Shown one piece after another: positions 8,512-61,394 of a DNA stretch of 64,000 nucleotides. Position 1 is the first letter of the stretch; each line of letters begins with the position of its first letter. The translations under genes were made by a program, and so were the position numbers. Source of the stretch: Agromyces mariniharenae (GTDB taxonomy: Bacteria; Actinomycetota; Actinomycetes; Actinomycetales; Microbacteriaceae); assembly GCF_008122505.1 (NCBI RefSeq), contig NZ_VSSB01000001.1:1658891-1722890 (forward strand), in the 5' to 3' direction. Under the pieces are notes generated by a model. It was not told where the DNA came from and ran no database searches. It saw only the letters and a program-made list of their open reading frames with translations.

Positions 8512-9471
8512 TCAGATCGCCCGGTGGTCGACGAACGACATGCGTGGCCCGCGCCGCGGGCGACCGCGCACGCCCGCCGCCTCGAGCAGGCGCACGACGC
8601 GGTAGCGGTGTCCGGCCCAGGGCGTCATCGCCTCGAGCATCTCGTCATCGGTCATGTCACGGCCCCAGAGCGCGTGGCCGACGTAGTTCGAGAGGTGGTA
8701 GTCGCCCACCGACAGCGCGTCGGCGTCGCCGAACGCGCGCTGCGCGACCTCGGCCGCAGTCCACGCGCCGACGCCGGGCATCAGGGTGAGGCGAGCTGCG
8801 GCATCCGTCGTGCTCATGCCCGCCGCCTCCTCGAGGCGTGACGCGTAGCGGGCGGCGTTCGCGATCGTGCGCGCCCGTCGCGGGTCCACGCCGGCCTTGT
8901 GCCACTCCCACGTCGGAATCGAGGCCCAGCGGGACGGCGACGGGGTCACGCGCATGCGGCGCGGCGTCGGACCGGGCGCCTCCTCGCCGAACCGCCACAC
9001 GAGCGTGCGCCACGAGTCGTGCGCCTGCACCGAGATGACCTTCTGCTCGAGGATCGCGGGCACGAGCGATTCGAACACGCGGCCGGTACGCGGGATGCGC
9101 AGGCCGGGGTTGCGGCGGTGCGCGTCGTCGAGGAGGCCGATGCGGGGGGCGAACGTCGCGGGATCGTCGCGCTCCCCGAGCACGTCGGGCGCCGTCGCGA
9201 CCGCCGCACGCGCTCCGGGACCCCACCCCTCGCAGCGGAGCTCGTCGGCCGCGGGCTGCGTGAAGCGCAGCGTGGCGACGCCCTCGTCGGTGCGCGTGGT
9301 GCGCCACACGGCGCCCGAGGCGTCGCGGAGGTACGTGGGGTCGGCCGGGCCACGGCGCAGCGAGCCGACGGTCTGCACCAGGTCGGTCGGATGCCGCGGG
9401 CTCCAGGTCAGCTCGTGCTCGGCGATCACGCGTCCAGTGTGCACCACCGGGCTGACAGCGGGATGCGGCAT
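8512..9471 (-). CDS. DNA-3-methyladenine glycosylase II family protein (AlkA-like)
   Basis: About 319 residues with the helix-hairpin-helix-GPD glycosylase core: LTLMPGVGAWTAAEVAQRAF followed by the catalytic Asp at about 257 in SVGDYHLSNYVG. This superfamily excises alkylated bases in base-excision repair. The N-terminal half fits the actinobacterial AlkA-like branch, with an LRRGPADPTYLRD segment. ATG 9471 has a weak GGTGAG upstream; GTG 9429, giving 305 residues, is an alternative that matches the usual family start better. The stop of the upstream universal stress gene lies only four bases before the ATG, so the two probably share a transcript. Confidence 0.85.
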   Translation of the reverse strand: MPHPAVSPVVHTGRVIAEHELTWSPRHPTDLVQTVGSLRRGPADPTYLRDASGAVWRTTRTDEGVATLRFTQPAADELRCEGWGPGARAAVATAPDVLGERDDPATFAPRIGLLDDAHRRNPGLRIPRTGRVFESLVPAILEQKVISVQAHDSWRTLVWRFGEEAPGPTPRRMRVTPSPSRWASIPTWEWHKAGVDPRRARTIANAARYASRLEEAAGMSTTDAAARLTLMPGVGAWTAAEVAQRAFGDADALSVGDYHLSNYVGHALWGRDMTDDEMLEAMTPWAGHRYRVVRLLEAAGVRGRPRRGPRMSFVDHRAI

Positions 9472-9475
9472 CCGC

Positions 9476-9955
9476 TCACCGCCCGTGAACGACGAGCACC
9501 GGGCAGTGCGCGTGCTCGGCGCACGCGGCGCTCACCGATCCGAGCAGGAGCCCGGCGAAACCGCCGTGCCCGCGGCTGCCGAGCACGAGCATCTCGGCGT
9601 GCGCCGACTCGTCGATGAGCACCTCGGCCGGTCGACCGCGGCGCGTCCGGGTCGCGAACCACTCGGGGCGCACCTCGCCGAACACCTCGTCGGCGGCCCG
9701 GCCCACGATGCGCTCGGCGTCGTCCTCGGGGGTCCAGTCGAGCTGCGGGTAGTAGCCGCCGTAGATGAACGACGGGTAGTTCCACACGGCGAGCGCCCGG
9801 ACGCGCAGGTCGAGTCGCGGGGCGAGTCCGGCCGCGTAGCGGAGCGCTGCGATCGAGGACTCCGAGCCGTCGACCCCGACGATCATCGCCGGCGGTCCGG
9901 GCTCGGGCTCGGGGTGCGGGTCGGGCGGATGCGCGTCCCGAAGGCTCTCGGGCAT
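9476..9955 (-). CDS. universal stress protein, ATP-binding type
   Basis: A 159-residue UspA-fold protein. It contains IVGVDGSESSIAALRYA near residue 25 and the ATP-binding signature GSRGHGGFAGLLLGSVS (G-2x-G-9x-G-S/T) near the C-terminus, so it is expected to bind ATP. A Pro-rich 20-residue tail precedes the domain. The start is ATG 9955 behind GAGGAGGA at seven bases. It is followed at four bases by the AlkA-like gene. Three 24-bp direct repeats lie immediately upstream and may be part of its control region. Confidence 0.85.
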   Translation of the reverse strand: MPESLRDAHPPDPHPEPEPGPPAMIVGVDGSESSIAALRYAAGLAPRLDLRVRALAVWNYPSFIYGGYYPQLDWTPEDDAERIVGRAADEVFGEVRPEWFATRTRRGRPAEVLIDESAHAEMLVLGSRGHGGFAGLLLGSVSAACAEHAHCPVLVVHGR

Positions 9956-37928: not shown

Positions 37929-38375
37929 TCAGGGGGCGGCGGGCGGGAAGCCGTCCGCCGGCTCCTGGGCGTTCAGCCGCAGCGCGATGTCGAGCAGGCT
38001 CACCCGCTTCAGCCGGGCCACCTCGGCGAGCGGGAACCACCGGGCATCGTCGCTCGAACCGCCGACCTCGCTGCGCAGCTCGCCGCCGGTCACCGTCGCG
38101 CGGTACACGACCCGCATCGCGTAGAGCGGCACGTCGCCCGAGTGCCGCCGCTCGGCGGGCACGACCATCGTGTCGATGCCGAGCAGGCGGTCGACGGATG
38201 CCTCGTACCCCGTCTCCTCGAAGATCTCGCGCCGGACCGCCTCGACCGGGTGCTCCGAGCCCTCGATACCGCCGCCCGGCAGCGTCCACCCGGACCGGCC
38301 GTGCTCGTTCCAGTGCGCGAGCAGGATCTCGCCGTCACGGATGATCACGCCATACGCGGCGATGCGGATGTCCAT
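37929..38375 (-). CDS. Nudix hydrolase
   Basis: A 148-residue Nudix protein. The Nudix box is perfect from Gly35 to Tyr57 (G-x5-E-x7-RE-x2-EE-x-G), including REIFEETGY with the metal-binding glutamates. Such enzymes hydrolyse nucleoside diphosphates linked to another moiety; substrate not evident. It is the last gene of the leftward block, 30 bases after the third paralog of the exported family, and may be cotranscribed with it. Confidence 0.9.
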   Translation of the reverse strand: MDIRIAAYGVIIRDGEILLAHWNEHGRSGWTLPGGGIEGSEHPVEAVRREIFEETGYEASVDRLLGIDTMVVPAERRHSGDVPLYAMRVVYRATVTGGELRSEVGGSSDDARWFPLAEVARLKRVSLLDIALRLNAQEPADGFPPAAP

Positions 38376-38405: not shown

Positions 38406-39203
38406 TCACCCGGCCCAGACCACCCAGCCGCCGTGCGGCAGGATCGGGATCGCAGCGACGAGGTATTCCTCCACCCCGTCGACATCGGTCAGGACGCCGA
38501 ACGTCGCGTCGCTGAACCGCAGGACGCCGCGGTCGTCGGGTCCGCTGAGCGGCAGCCTGGTCTGCGCCCACAGCCTGAGCATGCCCGCCTTGTCGAGGAG
38601 GATGCACTCGACGCCCGGTCCCGGCGCACTGTGGAATCCGGCCAGGCCGGCGAAGTTCCCGTCCTCATCGAGGAAGTCGTCGGTGAAGCTGCGAACGATG
38701 CCGTCCCGGAGCACCTCATGAGCTGCGCCCGAGACGCGGTCGATGATGTCGGGGACGTCGAGCAGCAGTTGGTCGGGGGCCGGATTCGGCGACGTGTTGA
38801 CCAGGCAGAGCGCGTACGAGGTCGGTCGGTAGAGCGCCGCCGCCGTCGGCGACCAGAAGCTGGATTCGACGTTGTCGGGCTCGCCCAGGACGGCCGCGAA
38901 GTTGACGGCCCCCGACTGCACGAGGCGCAGGCCGAACGGGCTGAGGTGCCGCTGGATGATCCCGTACGAGACGCTGCCCTCTGACGTGAGGAGCCGCCCG
39001 TTGTCGTGCCGGAGCACGACGCGCCCGTCCCCGTACACGTAGATCCACCCGATACGCAGCCGGCTCCACGCCGCGATGATGTTCGCGTCGTCCTCGTCAT
39101 GCCCGCTCACGTCGGCCCGCTCGGCCGCCGCGGCAGGTGCCTGGCCGGCCGTGTCGGATGCCCCGACCACGGCCAGCGCCCCCACGCTCGCGTAGGCGAC
39201 CAC
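38406..39203 (-). CDS. exported membrane-anchored protein, family member C (apparently frameshifted at its 5' end)
   Basis: The intact frame gives 265 residues from GTG 39203, but that start cuts a membrane helix in half. In-frame codons continue upstream to 39338 and encode ARRRWRTGYVVAAVAAVVAY, completing a helix preceded by arginines exactly as in members A and B, yet no start codon exists there. Adding one base to the C5 run at 39286-39290 would connect the frame to ATG 39304 (MASEEG...). The outside domain shares with A and B the motifs GWIYVYGDG, RHLSPFG, YALC, GPGVEC and PILPHGGWVVWAG. Function unknown. Confidence 0.65.
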   Translation of the reverse strand: MVAYASVGALAVVGASDTAGQAPAAAAERADVSGHDEDDANIIAAWSRLRIGWIYVYGDGRVVLRHDNGRLLTSEGSVSYGIIQRHLSPFGLRLVQSGAVNFAAVLGEPDNVESSFWSPTAAALYRPTSYALCLVNTSPNPAPDQLLLDVPDIIDRVSGAAHEVLRDGIVRSFTDDFLDEDGNFAGLAGFHSAPGPGVECILLDKAGMLRLWAQTRLPLSGPDDRGVLRFSDATFGVLTDVDGVEEYLVAAIPILPHGGWVVWAG

Positions 39204-39353
39204 CGCCGCGACGGCCGCGACGACATAACCCGTGCGCCACCGGCGGCGTGCGGGACTCGAGTGCGTGCGGTCGATCCGCGTCGGTCCCCCTCTTCCGACG
39301 CCATCCTCGCACTGTTGCCTCCCGTCGGCGAGGGTCGGTCAGCCCCCGCCGGA

Positions 39354-40112
39354 TCAAGGACCGGGCGGGGTCGTGTCGAACTCGAACGACTCGATGACCG
39401 CGGTCGAGGCCGCCAGGTGGTCGTCCCACCCTTCTGCCGCAGCGGAGTAGACGACGACCATGACCGTGGCGTACATCCCGCTCGGGAGGCCGGCGACGTC
39501 GAGGACGATGATCCGCCACTGCTCATCGGGCTCGGCCCCCCATGTGATGAAGTCCTGCGAGTACAGGAGCGGCACGTAGGGCCCGTCGCCTCCACAGTTC
39601 GCCGTCCAATCGGGGTCGATGGCGAGGTCGATCTGCTGCCCCGAGAGTCCGCCGACGGCGACCGGGACGGGTTCCTCCGTGCTCAGCCCAGGACGGGTCG
39701 CGAGGGCGCCGACGATGTCGTCCGCCGTCCACTCCACTCCGGGAGCGGCTTCATCACTGCAGTCCTCGGCCGCGACTTGGATGCTGGGGAAGACGTTGAG
39801 GAAGATGGTGGGATACCCACCGCTTCCGATCAGTTCGCGGTTCTCGGACGTGTCGGGCACGAGCGTGAGCTGTCCCTCGGCCGCGGGCTCGGTGAGCCAT
39901 CCGGCGGGAACTGTGAAGGTGAGCGGCGGCCAGAAGCTCGGGGCGGCTTGCGTCCCCGGTTCGAGAGCGACCAGCGGGGCCGTGTTCGAGGAAGCGGATG
40001 GGGACGAAGGCGGCGAGGACGTGTTCGCCGCGGTCCGGTTCGAGATGCTGGCGCACCCGACCAGCATGAGTGCGAGGGCCACCGCTACGGCGGCACACGG
40101 TGCCTTCATCAT
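39354..40112 (-). CDS. lipoprotein of the GntR-linked cluster, unknown
   Basis: A 252-residue lipoprotein. The signal peptide MMKAPCAAVAVALALMLVGC ends in a lipobox with Cys20, then a Ser/Thr/Pro linker and a folded domain with LTFTVPAGWLTEPA near its start and four further Cys-containing stretches (AEDCSDE, TANCGGDG). ATG 40112 is used; AAGGA lies upstream and ATG 40109 is equally placed. It is sandwiched between members B and C of the exported family and reads in the same direction, so it probably works with them. It is not itself a paralog of them. Confidence 0.8.
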   Translation of the reverse strand: MMKAPCAAVAVALALMLVGCASISNRTAANTSSPPSSPSASSNTAPLVALEPGTQAAPSFWPPLTFTVPAGWLTEPAAEGQLTLVPDTSENRELIGSGGYPTIFLNVFPSIQVAAEDCSDEAAPGVEWTADDIVGALATRPGLSTEEPVPVAVGGLSGQQIDLAIDPDWTANCGGDGPYVPLLYSQDFITWGAEPDEQWRIIVLDVAGLPSGMYATVMVVVYSAAAEGWDDHLAASTAVIESFEFDTTPPGP

Positions 40113-40143
40113 GATGTCCTTCCGGGCGACCCGAACGCGCGCC

Positions 40144-41001
40144 TCATCCACCCCACTGCACGAATCCGCCGTGGGGAAGGATCGGAAGGAGCACGACGTC
40201 GAGCTCGGCTCCGTTCGTGGCGGTCAACGTGGTGTAGTTCGCATCACTCGGGTACATCGCGGGATCGTCCCGAGGCAGGCTCACGTCCCACACCACCCCG
40301 GCCTCGCGGGCATCGAGGACGAAGCAGTCCACTCCGGGCCACGGCCCGACGACCGGATCGGCGAAGCTCCGCTCGGTGCCGCTGAGAACCGAGCGCAGCT
40401 GGATCGGGATCTGATCCCCGATCAGCTTCACGTCGCGGAGCCCCTCGCGCGGCGGGCTCTCGCTGACGGGTGCATGGCACAACGCGAACCTCGACGGCCG
40501 GTAGTTCGCCGCGGACGGGTCCGACCAGGCGGCCGTCGGAAGCGGGTCGGACAGCGACAGGAACTCGCGGAGCTCGACCTCGCCGGTCCGCACCATCTCC
40601 ACGCCGACGGGGCTGAGTCGCCGCTCGAGTATCCCACCGTTCGGATGGCCCGCAGCCGCCTGGCGATCGGGATAGGAGAGCACCCGACCGTCCGCGTAGA
40701 CGTACAGCCACCCGACGTGGAGCTTGCTCCACTGCGCCAGGATCCGTCCGTCATCGAACGTCGCTCCAGCGATCGGTGGTGGGATTCCCTCGGCAGTCCT
40801 CTCCTCAGACGAGGACCATGGACCGCCCGACATCGCGAGCGCTCCTGCGCCGAGCAGCAACACGCCGAGGGCGACGCCGATGGCGTAGCGCAGATGCCGA
40901 TGCCGTGTCCGGATCCCGGCCTCCCGGATGACGCCGGCTTCAACCGGCGGCGACGACCCGTCGACGGAAGGGTGTGCGCGTGCGGTGGTGGTGGTGCTCA
41001 C
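40144..41001 (-). CDS. exported membrane-anchored protein, family member B
   Basis: A 285-residue type II membrane protein: a cytoplasmic head of about 37 residues beginning MSTTTTARAHPSVDG, a helix (YAIGVALGVLLLGAGALAM, about 39-57), and an outside domain of about 220 residues. Motifs shared with A and C are HVGWLYVYADGRVLSY, RRLSPVG, RFALCH, WPGVDCFVL and the C-terminal PILPHGGFVQWGG. Two Cys (in ALC and VDC) are invariant in the three proteins. GTG 41001 is preceded by GGTTGGAGCAGGCAAC, identical to the sequence before member A. Function unknown. Confidence 0.78.
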   Translation of the reverse strand: MSTTTTARAHPSVDGSSPPVEAGVIREAGIRTRHRHLRYAIGVALGVLLLGAGALAMSGGPWSSSEERTAEGIPPPIAGATFDDGRILAQWSKLHVGWLYVYADGRVLSYPDRQAAAGHPNGGILERRLSPVGVEMVRTGEVELREFLSLSDPLPTAAWSDPSAANYRPSRFALCHAPVSESPPREGLRDVKLIGDQIPIQLRSVLSGTERSFADPVVGPWPGVDCFVLDAREAGVVWDVSLPRDDPAMYPSDANYTTLTATNGAELDVVLLPILPHGGFVQWGG

Positions 41002-41040
41002 GTTGCCTGCTCCAACCGATGATGGACACCGAGTCGGCGT

Positions 41041-41994
41041 TCAGCCGCCCCAAAGGACCCAGCCGCCGTGGGGCATGATCGGGATCGAGATCAGGATCAT
41101 CTCGCTGCCGTCGATCCCGTCCATGGTCGCGAACGCCGAATCGTCGGTGCGGAAACGGACGTCCTGCTCGGTCTGGCCGAGATCCGGACGGGTGTGCGCC
41201 CAGATGGCACGGACCAGGTCCGCGCTCATCACGTGACAGTCCACCCCGGGACCGGGATCGCCATGATGGCCGTCGATCCCGACGAAGCGCCCATCCTCGT
41301 CCAGGACGGGTTGGGTGAAGCTCCGCACGTCGGCGTGCTCGAGGAGCGCTCGGACCGGACGCGGTAGCTTCATGGCTATCGTGCCGACGTCAGTCAGGAA
41401 GTCCGGTTCGGGAGCGGGTACCTTCGCGAGGTGGCACAACGCGTACTCCGTCGCTCGGTAAGCCCCGGAGCGCTCGTCGGCCCACGCCTCAGCGGGGACG
41501 GTCCCGGCCGGCCCGACGAGGTCCTCCGCATCGAAGACCCCATCGCTGAGGAGCGTCATGCCGAGTGGGCTCAGGTGGCGTGCGCGGATCGGCGGTCGAT
41601 CCGCGTAGGAGAGCACCAAGCCGTCGTCGTACACGTATGCCCAGCCGACGTGGATCCTGGCCCATCGATATTTCACGGTCGCTGCGGACGCCGGAGCATC
41701 CGCTGCCGGTGGCCCGTTCGGTTCGGGCGCCGCGACCCGACTTCCAGCCGTGTCGGAGAAGAACGCCGCGATGCCTCCAGCGACGACAACGGCGGATGCC
41801 ACGACGATGAGCGTGATCCGACTCCGACGCTGGCGTGCATGATGACGTGCGTCGGAGATCGCACCGTCCTCAATGACGGGCGGAGCATCGGCGAAGGAGT
41901 CATCGGCGCTCTCGGCTCTGGCCAAGTGCTCGCTGGAGACCGGACCGTCATCGTCGACGGAAGGGGGCACGTGTTCGGAGGTGGTGGTGCTCAT
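41041..41994 (-). CDS. exported membrane-anchored protein, family member A
   Basis: A 317-residue type II membrane protein with a longer acidic cytoplasmic head (about 78 residues, starting MSTTTSEHVPPSVDDD), an Arg-rich turn, a helix (ITLIVVASAVVVAGGIAAFF) and the family's outside domain: HVGWAYVYDDGLVLSY, RHLSPLG, YALCH, GPGVDCHVM and PIMPHGGWVLWGG. It is the promoter-proximal gene of the leftward block and divergent from gntR, with an operator-like palindrome in the 40-base gap. No enzymatic motif is visible; a cell-surface sensor, inhibitor or binding role is possible. Confidence 0.78.
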   Translation of the reverse strand: MSTTTSEHVPPSVDDDGPVSSEHLARAESADDSFADAPPVIEDGAISDARHHARQRRSRITLIVVASAVVVAGGIAAFFSDTAGSRVAAPEPNGPPAADAPASAATVKYRWARIHVGWAYVYDDGLVLSYADRPPIRARHLSPLGMTLLSDGVFDAEDLVGPAGTVPAEAWADERSGAYRATEYALCHLAKVPAPEPDFLTDVGTIAMKLPRPVRALLEHADVRSFTQPVLDEDGRFVGIDGHHGDPGPGVDCHVMSADLVRAIWAHTRPDLGQTEQDVRFRTDDSAFATMDGIDGSEMILISIPIMPHGGWVLWGG

Positions 41995-42010
41995 GTTGCC
42001 TGCTCCAACC

Positions 42011-42028
42011 AATGACGATATTATCATT
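42011..42028. promoter_or_regulatory. 18-bp imperfect palindrome, probable GntR operator
   Basis: AATGACGATATTATCATT reads as an inverted repeat with AATGA/TCATT arms and an ATAT centre; only two base pairs mismatch. It fills the 40-base gap between the divergent gntR and member A genes, which is far more AT-rich than its surroundings, and overlaps any -10 box either gene could use. Confidence 0.65.
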
Positions 42029-42034
42029 AGCACC

Positions 42035-42382
42035 ATGATCGATGTCAAGCTCGATCGGAACGATCGGACCGACCTCTACGAGCAGGTGGCCGCCGAGATC
42101 CGTCGGTCGATCGCAGATGGCGAGGCTCTGCCGGGTGATCGCCTGCCCCCGGCGAGAGACCTGGCGGCCGTACTCGACGTGAACACCAACACGGTGCTGC
42201 GCGCGCTGCGCCTCCTGCGAGACGAGGGACTGCTCGAGTTCCGGCGCGGGCGCGGCATCTCGGTAGCGGGGGTCCCCGAGCGCGGCGCGGTGCTCCAACG
42301 CACCCGCGAACTCGTGGCGTTCGCACGCCAGCAGGGTTACAGCACCCAGGAGCTCATCGACATGATCGTCGCCGTCCCCTGA
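42035..42382 (+). CDS. short GntR regulator, YtrA subfamily type
   Basis: A 115-residue regulator. The N-terminal winged helix opens DLYEQVAAEIRRSIADGE, has LPPARDLAAVLDVNTNTVLRAL as helix-turn-helix, and EFRRGRGISVAG as the wing. Only about 40 residues follow, with no FCD or UTRA domain, which is the YtrA class. YtrA-type proteins usually repress membrane-transport or cell-envelope-stress operons and their own gene. ATG 42035 starts seven bases after the palindrome. It is divergent from member A, and a hairpin follows. Confidence 0.9.
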   Translation: MIDVKLDRNDRTDLYEQVAAEIRRSIADGEALPGDRLPPARDLAAVLDVNTNTVLRALRLLRDEGLLEFRRGRGISVAGVPERGAVLQRTRELVAFARQQGYSTQELIDMIVAVP

Positions 42383-57463: not shown

Positions 57464-58172
57464 GAATGAGCTCGCCTCCGAGGCGATCCGCCGTCCCCCG
57501 GAGTCCGCCGGCGGTGATGAGCGTGCTTGGCTCGGGTCGCCTCTGCGGTCGCGCAATCGATCGAACACGTCTGACTCGACCGAATCTGTCCTTCACTGAC
57601 TGCACTCACCGGGCCCACCACCACGCGGCGGTATCCGTCGCGAAGTCCCCACGAAGTCCCCACGGAGCGGCCTCGGGGAGCTCCGGCGCAGTCTCAACGG
57701 TGGTGAGACGGCGTGGCGCCATCACTACATGATCCTCGTGCGACGTGATCGTGCCCGTCTGAATCCCTCGAAGCAGTCGGTCGCTGTGCGAGGAGGAGAC
57801 CGCACCCGCACGGCAGAGAGATGACCCCTCACCCCGAAAGCCCGCGATCGGTGCGACGGGAACGACGGACGAGGCGGGAATGGTGATGGCGGGCGGAGCG
57901 GGAACTGCGGAGGTGAGGAAAGGGTGGGCGAGGCGGCAACGGGTGGGCGGAGCGGGAACGGCCGACGTGTCGGAAACCGATGACCGGAACGGGAAGGGCG
58001 GGCGAAGCGGGAACGGTGGGCAGCGCGCGGCAACGGGCCGTGGCCGCAGACGGCAAGCGTGAGGGACAGCGGGCGGAGCGGGGACGGTGGGGGAAGCGAA
58101 AGAATGGTGGGCAGCGCGGGAATGGCCGACATGTCCGAAACAACGGGCGGAGCGGGGACGGCGGGCGAAAGC

Positions 58173-58455
58173 GGGAACGGTGGGCAGCGCGGGAACGGTG
58201 GGCAGCGGGGGAACGGCGGGCAGCGCGGGAACGGCGGGCGGCGCGGGGACGGTGGGCGGCGCGGGGACGGTGGGCGGCGGGGGAACGGCGGGCGGCGGGG
58301 GAACGGCGGGCGGCGCGGGAACGGCGGGCAGCGCGGGAACGGCGGGCAGCGCGGGGACGGTGGGCAGCGCGGGAACGGTGGGCGGCGCGGGAACGGCGGG
58401 CAGCGGGGAACGGCGGGCAGCGCGGGAACGGCGGGCGATGCGGGAACGGCTGACG
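58173..58455. repeat. 18-bp minisatellite, about 15-16 units
   Basis: Units of GGGAACGGCGGGCAGCGC with variants (A/G at position 4, C/T at 9, A/G at 14, final C/G) run head to tail from 58173; one unit is 17 bp (near 58389-58405). Degenerate relatives extend back to about 57880. Because 18 is a multiple of three, all frames stay open, which explains the long false open frames here. Confidence 0.92.

Positions 58456-59141: not shown

Positions 59142-61393
<2,252 letters not shown>

Positions 61394-61394
<1 letters not shown>

Follow-up and report, generated by a model that had tools for sequence, protein, structure and literature searches.

The window considered here is a stretch of 64,000 nucleotides from Agromyces mariniharenae, lying in a contig of 2,850,492 bases within a genome of 4,082,539 bases on 3 contigs. 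Between positions 38,406 and 42,382 it carries a short gene for a regulator of the GntR family and, divergent from it, the genes of three paralogous membrane proteins (A, B and C) interleaved with a lipoprotein gene. An earlier reading of the letters alone (hereafter the sequence-only reading) had located these five genes at the right places. The features of the cluster are as follows:

42035-42382, plus strand: GntR gene, a short YtrA-type regulator of 115 residues, Pfam GntR
42011-42034, no strand: predicted operator between GntR and A, of TGCTA-N7-TAGCA form with a degenerate left arm
41041-41994, minus strand: gene A, a type II membrane protein of 317 residues, the first gene opposite GntR
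41818-41874, minus strand: inner tail of A, IEDGAISDARHHARQRRSR, residues 41-59, aligned with the tails of its relatives
41044-41688, minus strand: outer (GW) domain of A, residues 103-317, two-lobed in the model
40144-41001, minus strand: gene B, a paralogue of A, 285 residues
39354-40112, minus strand: lipoprotein gene, 252 residues
38406-39203, minus strand: gene C, a paralogue with a complete outer domain and an unclear 5' end

Comparison with 60 genomes of Agromyces, with 398 sampled Microbacteriaceae and, for the wider range of the regulator, with 394 genomes of the class revealed that this cluster belongs to a module that is patchily distributed in Agromyces and its relatives and exchanges its parts. 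With a probability of roughly 45%, the module is an autoregulated transmembrane sensing device built on a YtrA-type repressor, a reading supported by the observed co-occurrence of its parts, their divergent layout, the operator, the exchange of outer domains, a joint absence in two genomes and a contrast of evolutionary rates. The pairing of a YtrA regulator with a membrane protein is a known arrangement; the variant seen here comes with an outer domain for which no named family was found.

The regulator matches PF00392 with an E value of 1.9e-18 over residues 14-77, and 38 residues follow this domain. Its earlier assignment to the YtrA type is supported. Close relatives, nine copies with 71-100% identity, are present in 7 of the 60 Agromyces genomes, the next best match reaching at most 52%, and the sampled Microbacteriaceae contributed two more (E<=1e-27), for a total of 11. 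Every one of the 11 stands divergent from a gene whose product crosses the membrane once and has an inner tail related to those of the others. The proposed link with GntR thus extends across species, but the outer part of the partner proved exchangeable, which the sequence-only reading had not foreseen: the GW domain (the name used here for the outer domain of A, B and C) occupies it in five partners (the window and loci L018, L023, L017 and L024), and an unrelated propeller of PD40 type in six (L019, L093, L094, L095, L091 and L092). The Pfam matches to PD40 are clear for L093 and L094, just reach the cut-off for L091 and fall below it for L092; the propellers of L019 and L095 were assigned by 46-60% identity to other propellers. 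By using the L093 propeller protein as a query, six genes were retrieved in 4 of the 60 genomes, all four of which possess a close GntR. Tail-bearing membrane proteins occur in all seven Agromyces genomes with a close GntR and in none of the 53 others, a count drawn from searches with A, with the profile A1 and with the L093 propeller protein, and not from a whole-genome scan of the motif.

An ABC-transporter operon is usual, although not obligatory, for the YtrA subfamily. Its absence next to GntR in the window had already been remarked, and by eye no ABC gene adjoins any of the 11 copies; at L093 an ABC-permease-like gene lies about 2 kb away, beyond another gene. Matches to the regulator with E<=1e-24 were found in 52 of the 394 genomes of the class. 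Among the best 19 outside the own genome (L111-L129), 18 stand by eye beside DUF1648-like proteins, L117 being the exception, and no tail motif was seen by eye near them. Seven of seven proteins encoded beside distant GntR relatives matched DUF1648 with E<0.001, two of them above Pfam's cut-off, and Pfam finds no such match in A, B or C. The same domain is carried by SdpI, partner of the repressor SdpR, whose family differs from GntR.

The relationship between the three membrane proteins is well beyond chance: in a search of the own genome with A, B was recovered with an E value of 1.9e-34 and C with 2.2e-42. Their description as adjacent type II paralogues is to be qualified for C, as its frame offers no ATG, GTG or TTG upstream of the membrane segment and the first start listed for it, GTG 39203, already falls within the segment, which makes this topology uncertain. 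A and B are indeed preceded by a common leader, ttgcctgctccaacc, running from 41003 and from 41996. The closest outside protein, 90% identical, belongs to Agromyces sp. NPDC004153. The domain is not limited to the three copies of the cluster, for the own genome holds three more, at C1:595026 and C1:602265 (both in L016) and at C1:1735255 (L017); a remnant of another copy precedes the second of these, and the third has its own divergent GntR.

In an alignment of 25 rows, A-C included, residues C187 and C253 are invariant, as are W111, D124, G125, G145, P305, P308 and G310, so that both cysteines singled out by the sequence-only reading hold throughout; the GW-YVY-DG, LSP-G and PHGG features listed with them are kept in most rows, not in all. 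The domain is covered by no Pfam or NCBIfam family, has no sequence relative in the PDB and gave no convincing fold match, and in Pfam A, B and C show no PD40 repeats. The AlphaFold2 model of A residues 101-317 (predicted template-modelling score 0.82, mean predicted local distance difference test score 86.6) consists of a four-strand meander and a helix, followed by an alpha/beta lobe. C187 and C253 fall in two strands of this second lobe (residues 183-190 and 251-257), and a disulfide between these two invariant cysteines is plausible.

The region between GntR and its partner contains a candidate for the site of regulation. The upstream regions of GntR align to TGCTA-N7-TAGCA in all nine Agromyces loci, a long palindrome with half-sites set well apart, as is typical of operators in the YtrA subfamily. 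An 18-bp palindrome had been described at this place in the window; it is present, with 7 of its 9 positions pairing, but is better read as part of a 24-bp candidate site (42011-42034) of the TGCTA-N7-TAGCA form, whose degenerate left arm leaves it without an exact match to the pattern. A matrix built from the nine sites was scanned over 618,132 positions. Held-out sites were recovered before a second propeller gene that lacks a GntR of its own (L094:801, 34.2 bits), in a locus without GntR (L022:9175, 31.0 bits), in the divergent gap of two loci from other genera (L091:8072, 18.1 bits; L092:3856, 17.0 bits) and before the own-genome operon of remnant and paralogue (L016:14378, 14.3 bits). When all matches above 12 bits are considered, the best site outside the module reaches 12.6 bits. 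In 24 genomes the exact pattern gave 10 sites in 7 of the 9 genomes with a close GntR, module loci accounting for 8 of these sites, and none in the other two, G018 and G259; the 15 genomes without a close GntR yielded a single site, beside a more distant GntR.

Two of these exact sites deserve mention on their own. At L101:1501-1517 (G036:C2:1087329), far from the module, TGCTA-N7-TAGCA lies about 46 bp before a predicted lipoprotein which reads like a serine hydrolase, and is possibly a further GntR target. The lone site of the 15 genomes, L096:1501-1517 (G007:C1:2432104), is flanked by a GntR gene with 44% identity on one side and a transporter-like gene on the other, and related regulators may therefore read a similar site.

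The inner parts of the 11 partners end in stretches such as LIEEARHRARRRR, VISDARRRRRRRRRR or LFKEARRRARRRR. An expression combining this tail with the membrane segment matches 10 of the 11; it misses A (IEDGAISDARHHARQRR), owing to an Ala at a position held by V, L or I elsewhere, and A joins by alignment. Among 770 called genes, with overlapping loci counted repeatedly, the expression matched only members of the module. This selectivity speaks against a simpler account, nearly as likely as the sensing module, in which GntR represses exported binding or structural surface proteins on a cytoplasmic cue; the membrane proteins would not signal, the tail would serve only as anchor and topology signal, and outer domains would be exchanged because neighbouring genes share sequence. 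The operator and the divergent layout require no tail contact and, as this account would have it, B, C and the L016 copies are retained although their tails are poor or unreadable. It also has a precedent in the repressor YtrASa of Sulfolobus, which represses membrane proteins of unknown function with no signalling role reported for them (PMC6746942). Less easily accommodated are the non-basic residues that the tails share (L/V/A-I/F-x-E/D-A), which topology does not require, and the lack of the tail in two genomes without a close GntR, described below, though the outer domain persists there.

Direct traces of exchange between outer domains were found at two pairs of loci. Over 449 bp, L019 (G036) and L024 (G044) are 94.9% identical; this common sequence spans GntR and the operator and, on the L019 side, reaches into the first codons of the partner. 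Past it the two diverge: L019 encodes a propeller, and L024 a GW-domain protein with its called start some 48 bp further on. L019 and L022 (G018) occupy the same genomic place, judged by a common neighbour which we take to be dcd-like, and 247 bp encoding their tails, as far as RARRRR, agree to 85.8%; beyond this point L019 continues into the propeller and L022 into a membrane segment and domain of GW type. In L019 the divergent gene is the propeller and a truncated GW-domain gene follows downstream; in L022 a stop breaks the GW gene, and GntR is absent from its side. At the expected position of GntR in L022, next to this decayed copy of the module, a fragment (9200-9600) presumably represents the end of an IS481-type integrase. 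A second, independent exchange concerns P0040, the first 60 residues of which recur with 55-85% identity in proteins with other outer parts, Kelch in P0056, P0073 and P0075 and PD40 in P0070, according to precomputed Pfam numbers. P0041, with a GW domain, is 77% identical to P0040 over 100 residues, and the GW domain of P0040 is found on other tails in P0042, P0047, P0052 and others.

The GW domain is present in 6 of the 60 Agromyces genomes. Two of these, G021 (L020) and G052 (L021), carry it at the same site as the window and have no close GntR anywhere in the genome. This site is bounded on one flank by a Nudix gene (37929-38375 in the window, Pfam NUDIX). The genes on the other flank we take to be gyrA and gyrB, together with one for a small membrane protein, and dnaA and parA/parB lie at a greater distance. 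The sequence-only reading had regarded copies scattered without a link to GntR as contrary to its proposal. The copies are scattered, and these two of six genomes lack a close GntR, but both loci are also devoid of the tail motif and of an operator (best scores 1.9 and 2.6 bits) while the GW domain is kept. The ratio of nonsynonymous (dN) to synonymous (dS) substitutions between them is 0.226/0.509.

The two halves of the module differ in their rate of change. GntR evolves slowly, with dN/dS of 0.07-0.17 in four pairs; outer domains evolve fast, with dN of 0.62-0.76 and dS of 0.6-1.4 in six pairs. Between the window and L018, dN is 0.098 for GntR and 0.718 for the outer domain. The two L016 copies, one of the six fast pairs, have an outer-domain dN/dS of about 1.

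Such fast outer evolution, together with the patchy occurrence of the domain, its presence in several diverged forms within a single genome, its broken copies (L022, L025) and the DUF1648-like partners of related GntR genes, might suggest diversified immunity or competition proteins directed against the secreted toxins or the phage of relatives, in the manner of SdpI, with an arms race producing patchiness and broken copies. This explanation is improbable: the outer-domain dN/dS is below 1 in 6 of 7 pairs, dS being close to saturated in most of them; inspection by eye of the loci read showed neither a toxin gene nor a dedicated secretion gene beside the copies; and a propeller would be unusual as an immunity protein. 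Even less credit is given to a self-spreading and largely neutral gene pair, an autoregulated unit which duplicates and decays without benefit. Its occupation of different sites in related species, the decayed copies and the lack of a clear start in gene C would fit such a unit, but GntR is under purifying selection at the dN/dS values given above, and in the loci read no mobilisation gene belongs to the unit.

In the sensing module, the membrane protein would be an input to the regulator. GntR would bind one operator between its own gene and the divergent membrane-protein gene and repress both. Held by a single anchor, the membrane protein has an inner tail that is conserved in the gene opposite GntR, and its outer domain is replaced or diversified; this domain would meet something outside the cell, and the tail would then alter or sequester the repressor, as SdpI does with SdpR, leading to induction of the receptor operon. 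In the window, the receptor would have been duplicated to three outer variants accompanied by a lipoprotein. DNA binding, repression, contact between tail and GntR and the outside signal are what we infer here. The earlier proposal of a surface system with diversified copies is supported, and of the roles it had offered that of sensors fits best.

Several findings weigh against this reading. The tail expression was written from the same sequences in which it was counted, and misses A; basic residues beside membrane segments are ordinary. No match to it was obtained in B (whose tail, VIREAGIRTRHRH, is only partly like the motif), in C, in either L016 copy, or in L020 and L021. Since B, C and the L016 copies persist without the motif, the tail is not needed for persistence of the domain, and the copy at L016:6024 is also without an operator (best -8.2 bits). 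As the nearest GntR relatives have DUF1648-like partners without the tail, a tail contact would not be ancestral. Joint divergence of GntR and tail is weak and not significant (Mantel r 0.33, a value reached by 390 of 5000 permutations), and the resolution of the GntR tree is poor. Tail motif and GntR are missing together in two genomes only, and L022, a decayed locus in a genome with GntR elsewhere, keeps the tail motif with its GntR gone.

At L151, from a distant actinobacterium, a gene with a GW-type domain (profile E 2.7e-23) comes after a sigma-factor gene of the extracytoplasmic function (ECF) type, the two overlapping by 4 bases, which counts in favour of the sensing module. In a more far-reaching version, which is doubtful, the YtrA-type GntR would be under the direct control of a receptor that crosses the membrane once, its tail constant and its outer domains interchangeable. 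The same outer domain would serve ECF sigma systems elsewhere, so that receptor heads would be exchanged between two classes of regulator.

The arrangement may be compared with known systems. With membrane anti-sigma or sensor proteins of ECF sigma factors it shares a single-span protein with inner tail and outer domain beside a transcription regulator; however, the regulator here is a GntR repressor, and no anti-sigma domain was matched in A, B or C by Pfam or NCBIfam, the weak RskA_C match of P0037 (E 0.015) remaining below the cut-off. Propeller membrane proteins of the PD40/TolB-like kind supply the other outer domain seen here with such tails and GntR; the outer domain in the window has no PD40 match. 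Tsypik et al. are said to have described, in 2016, an actinomycete group of YtrA-subfamily GntR repressors. A search of the open literature listed no paper recognised as an account of this module.

In YtrA proteins the C-terminal part is reduced to about 50 residues with two helices. By 2019 no biologically relevant ligand had been identified for them (PMC6746942). YtrASa, a regulator with a small C-terminal part, resembles the present system in its short GntR of about 115-120 residues, its position beside a membrane-protein gene, its long palindromic site and its small regulon (PMC6746942). In contrast, all 11 pairs found here are divergent, whereas YtrA sites are almost never located between divergent operons (PMC4494728), and the partner here is a single-span protein with an exchangeable outer domain. 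In Bacillus subtilis, the autorepressor SdpR is reported to be sequestered by the membrane protein SdpI (PMC1626106), and this is the mechanism proposed here; SdpI, however, is polytopic, and sequestration is conjectured in the present case.

If true, the more far-reaching version would explain how ligand-less YtrA repressors are informed. The module offers a concrete input candidate for such a regulator, with the neighbouring membrane protein as sensor and its tail as input. The natural exchanges of outer domains on a nearly unchanged GntR and operator represent ready-made chimeras for testing. The outer-domain family, without a sequence relative in Pfam, NCBIfam or PDB, has GntR as its companion in one lineage; in another, an ECF sigma factor takes that place.

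The lipoprotein, which the sequence-only reading had counted as an element of the cluster, was rejected as a constant part of the module: among the loci compared, a homologue is found only in L018 besides the window, and no family match above the cut-off was obtained in Pfam or NCBIfam. A long protein at L152:2903-4603 opens with a zinc-ribbon-like part, followed by a membrane segment and joined to a lipoprotein-like and a GW domain; its lipoprotein-like part resembles the window's lipoprotein by eye, but BLASTP gave an E value of 0.028, and no claim is made. A match in G055 (E 1.8e-4) from the search of the 60 Agromyces genomes was dropped, as the profile did not repeat it. Profile matches confined to the N-terminal part (L034-L036, L039, L040, L141 and L142) corresponded to basic stretches and membrane segments of unrelated proteins; the loci of other matches of this kind, up to L052, were screened with the tail expression only.

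Further along the window, seven exact copies of GTTTCACGTGAAAC, presumably parS, lie around parA/parB between 55794 and 60487, where 0.04 copies would be expected at up to two mismatches. An 18-bp tandem repeat of 17 copies with strong GC and AT skew occupies 58144-58450; the region around it, which extends for about 2.7 kb from an rsmG-like gene to parA, contains no evident gene. The ParA-like frame at 59142-61394 can start far upstream, giving a product of 750 residues with a long front part rich in proline and threonine; ParA proteins are usually far shorter.

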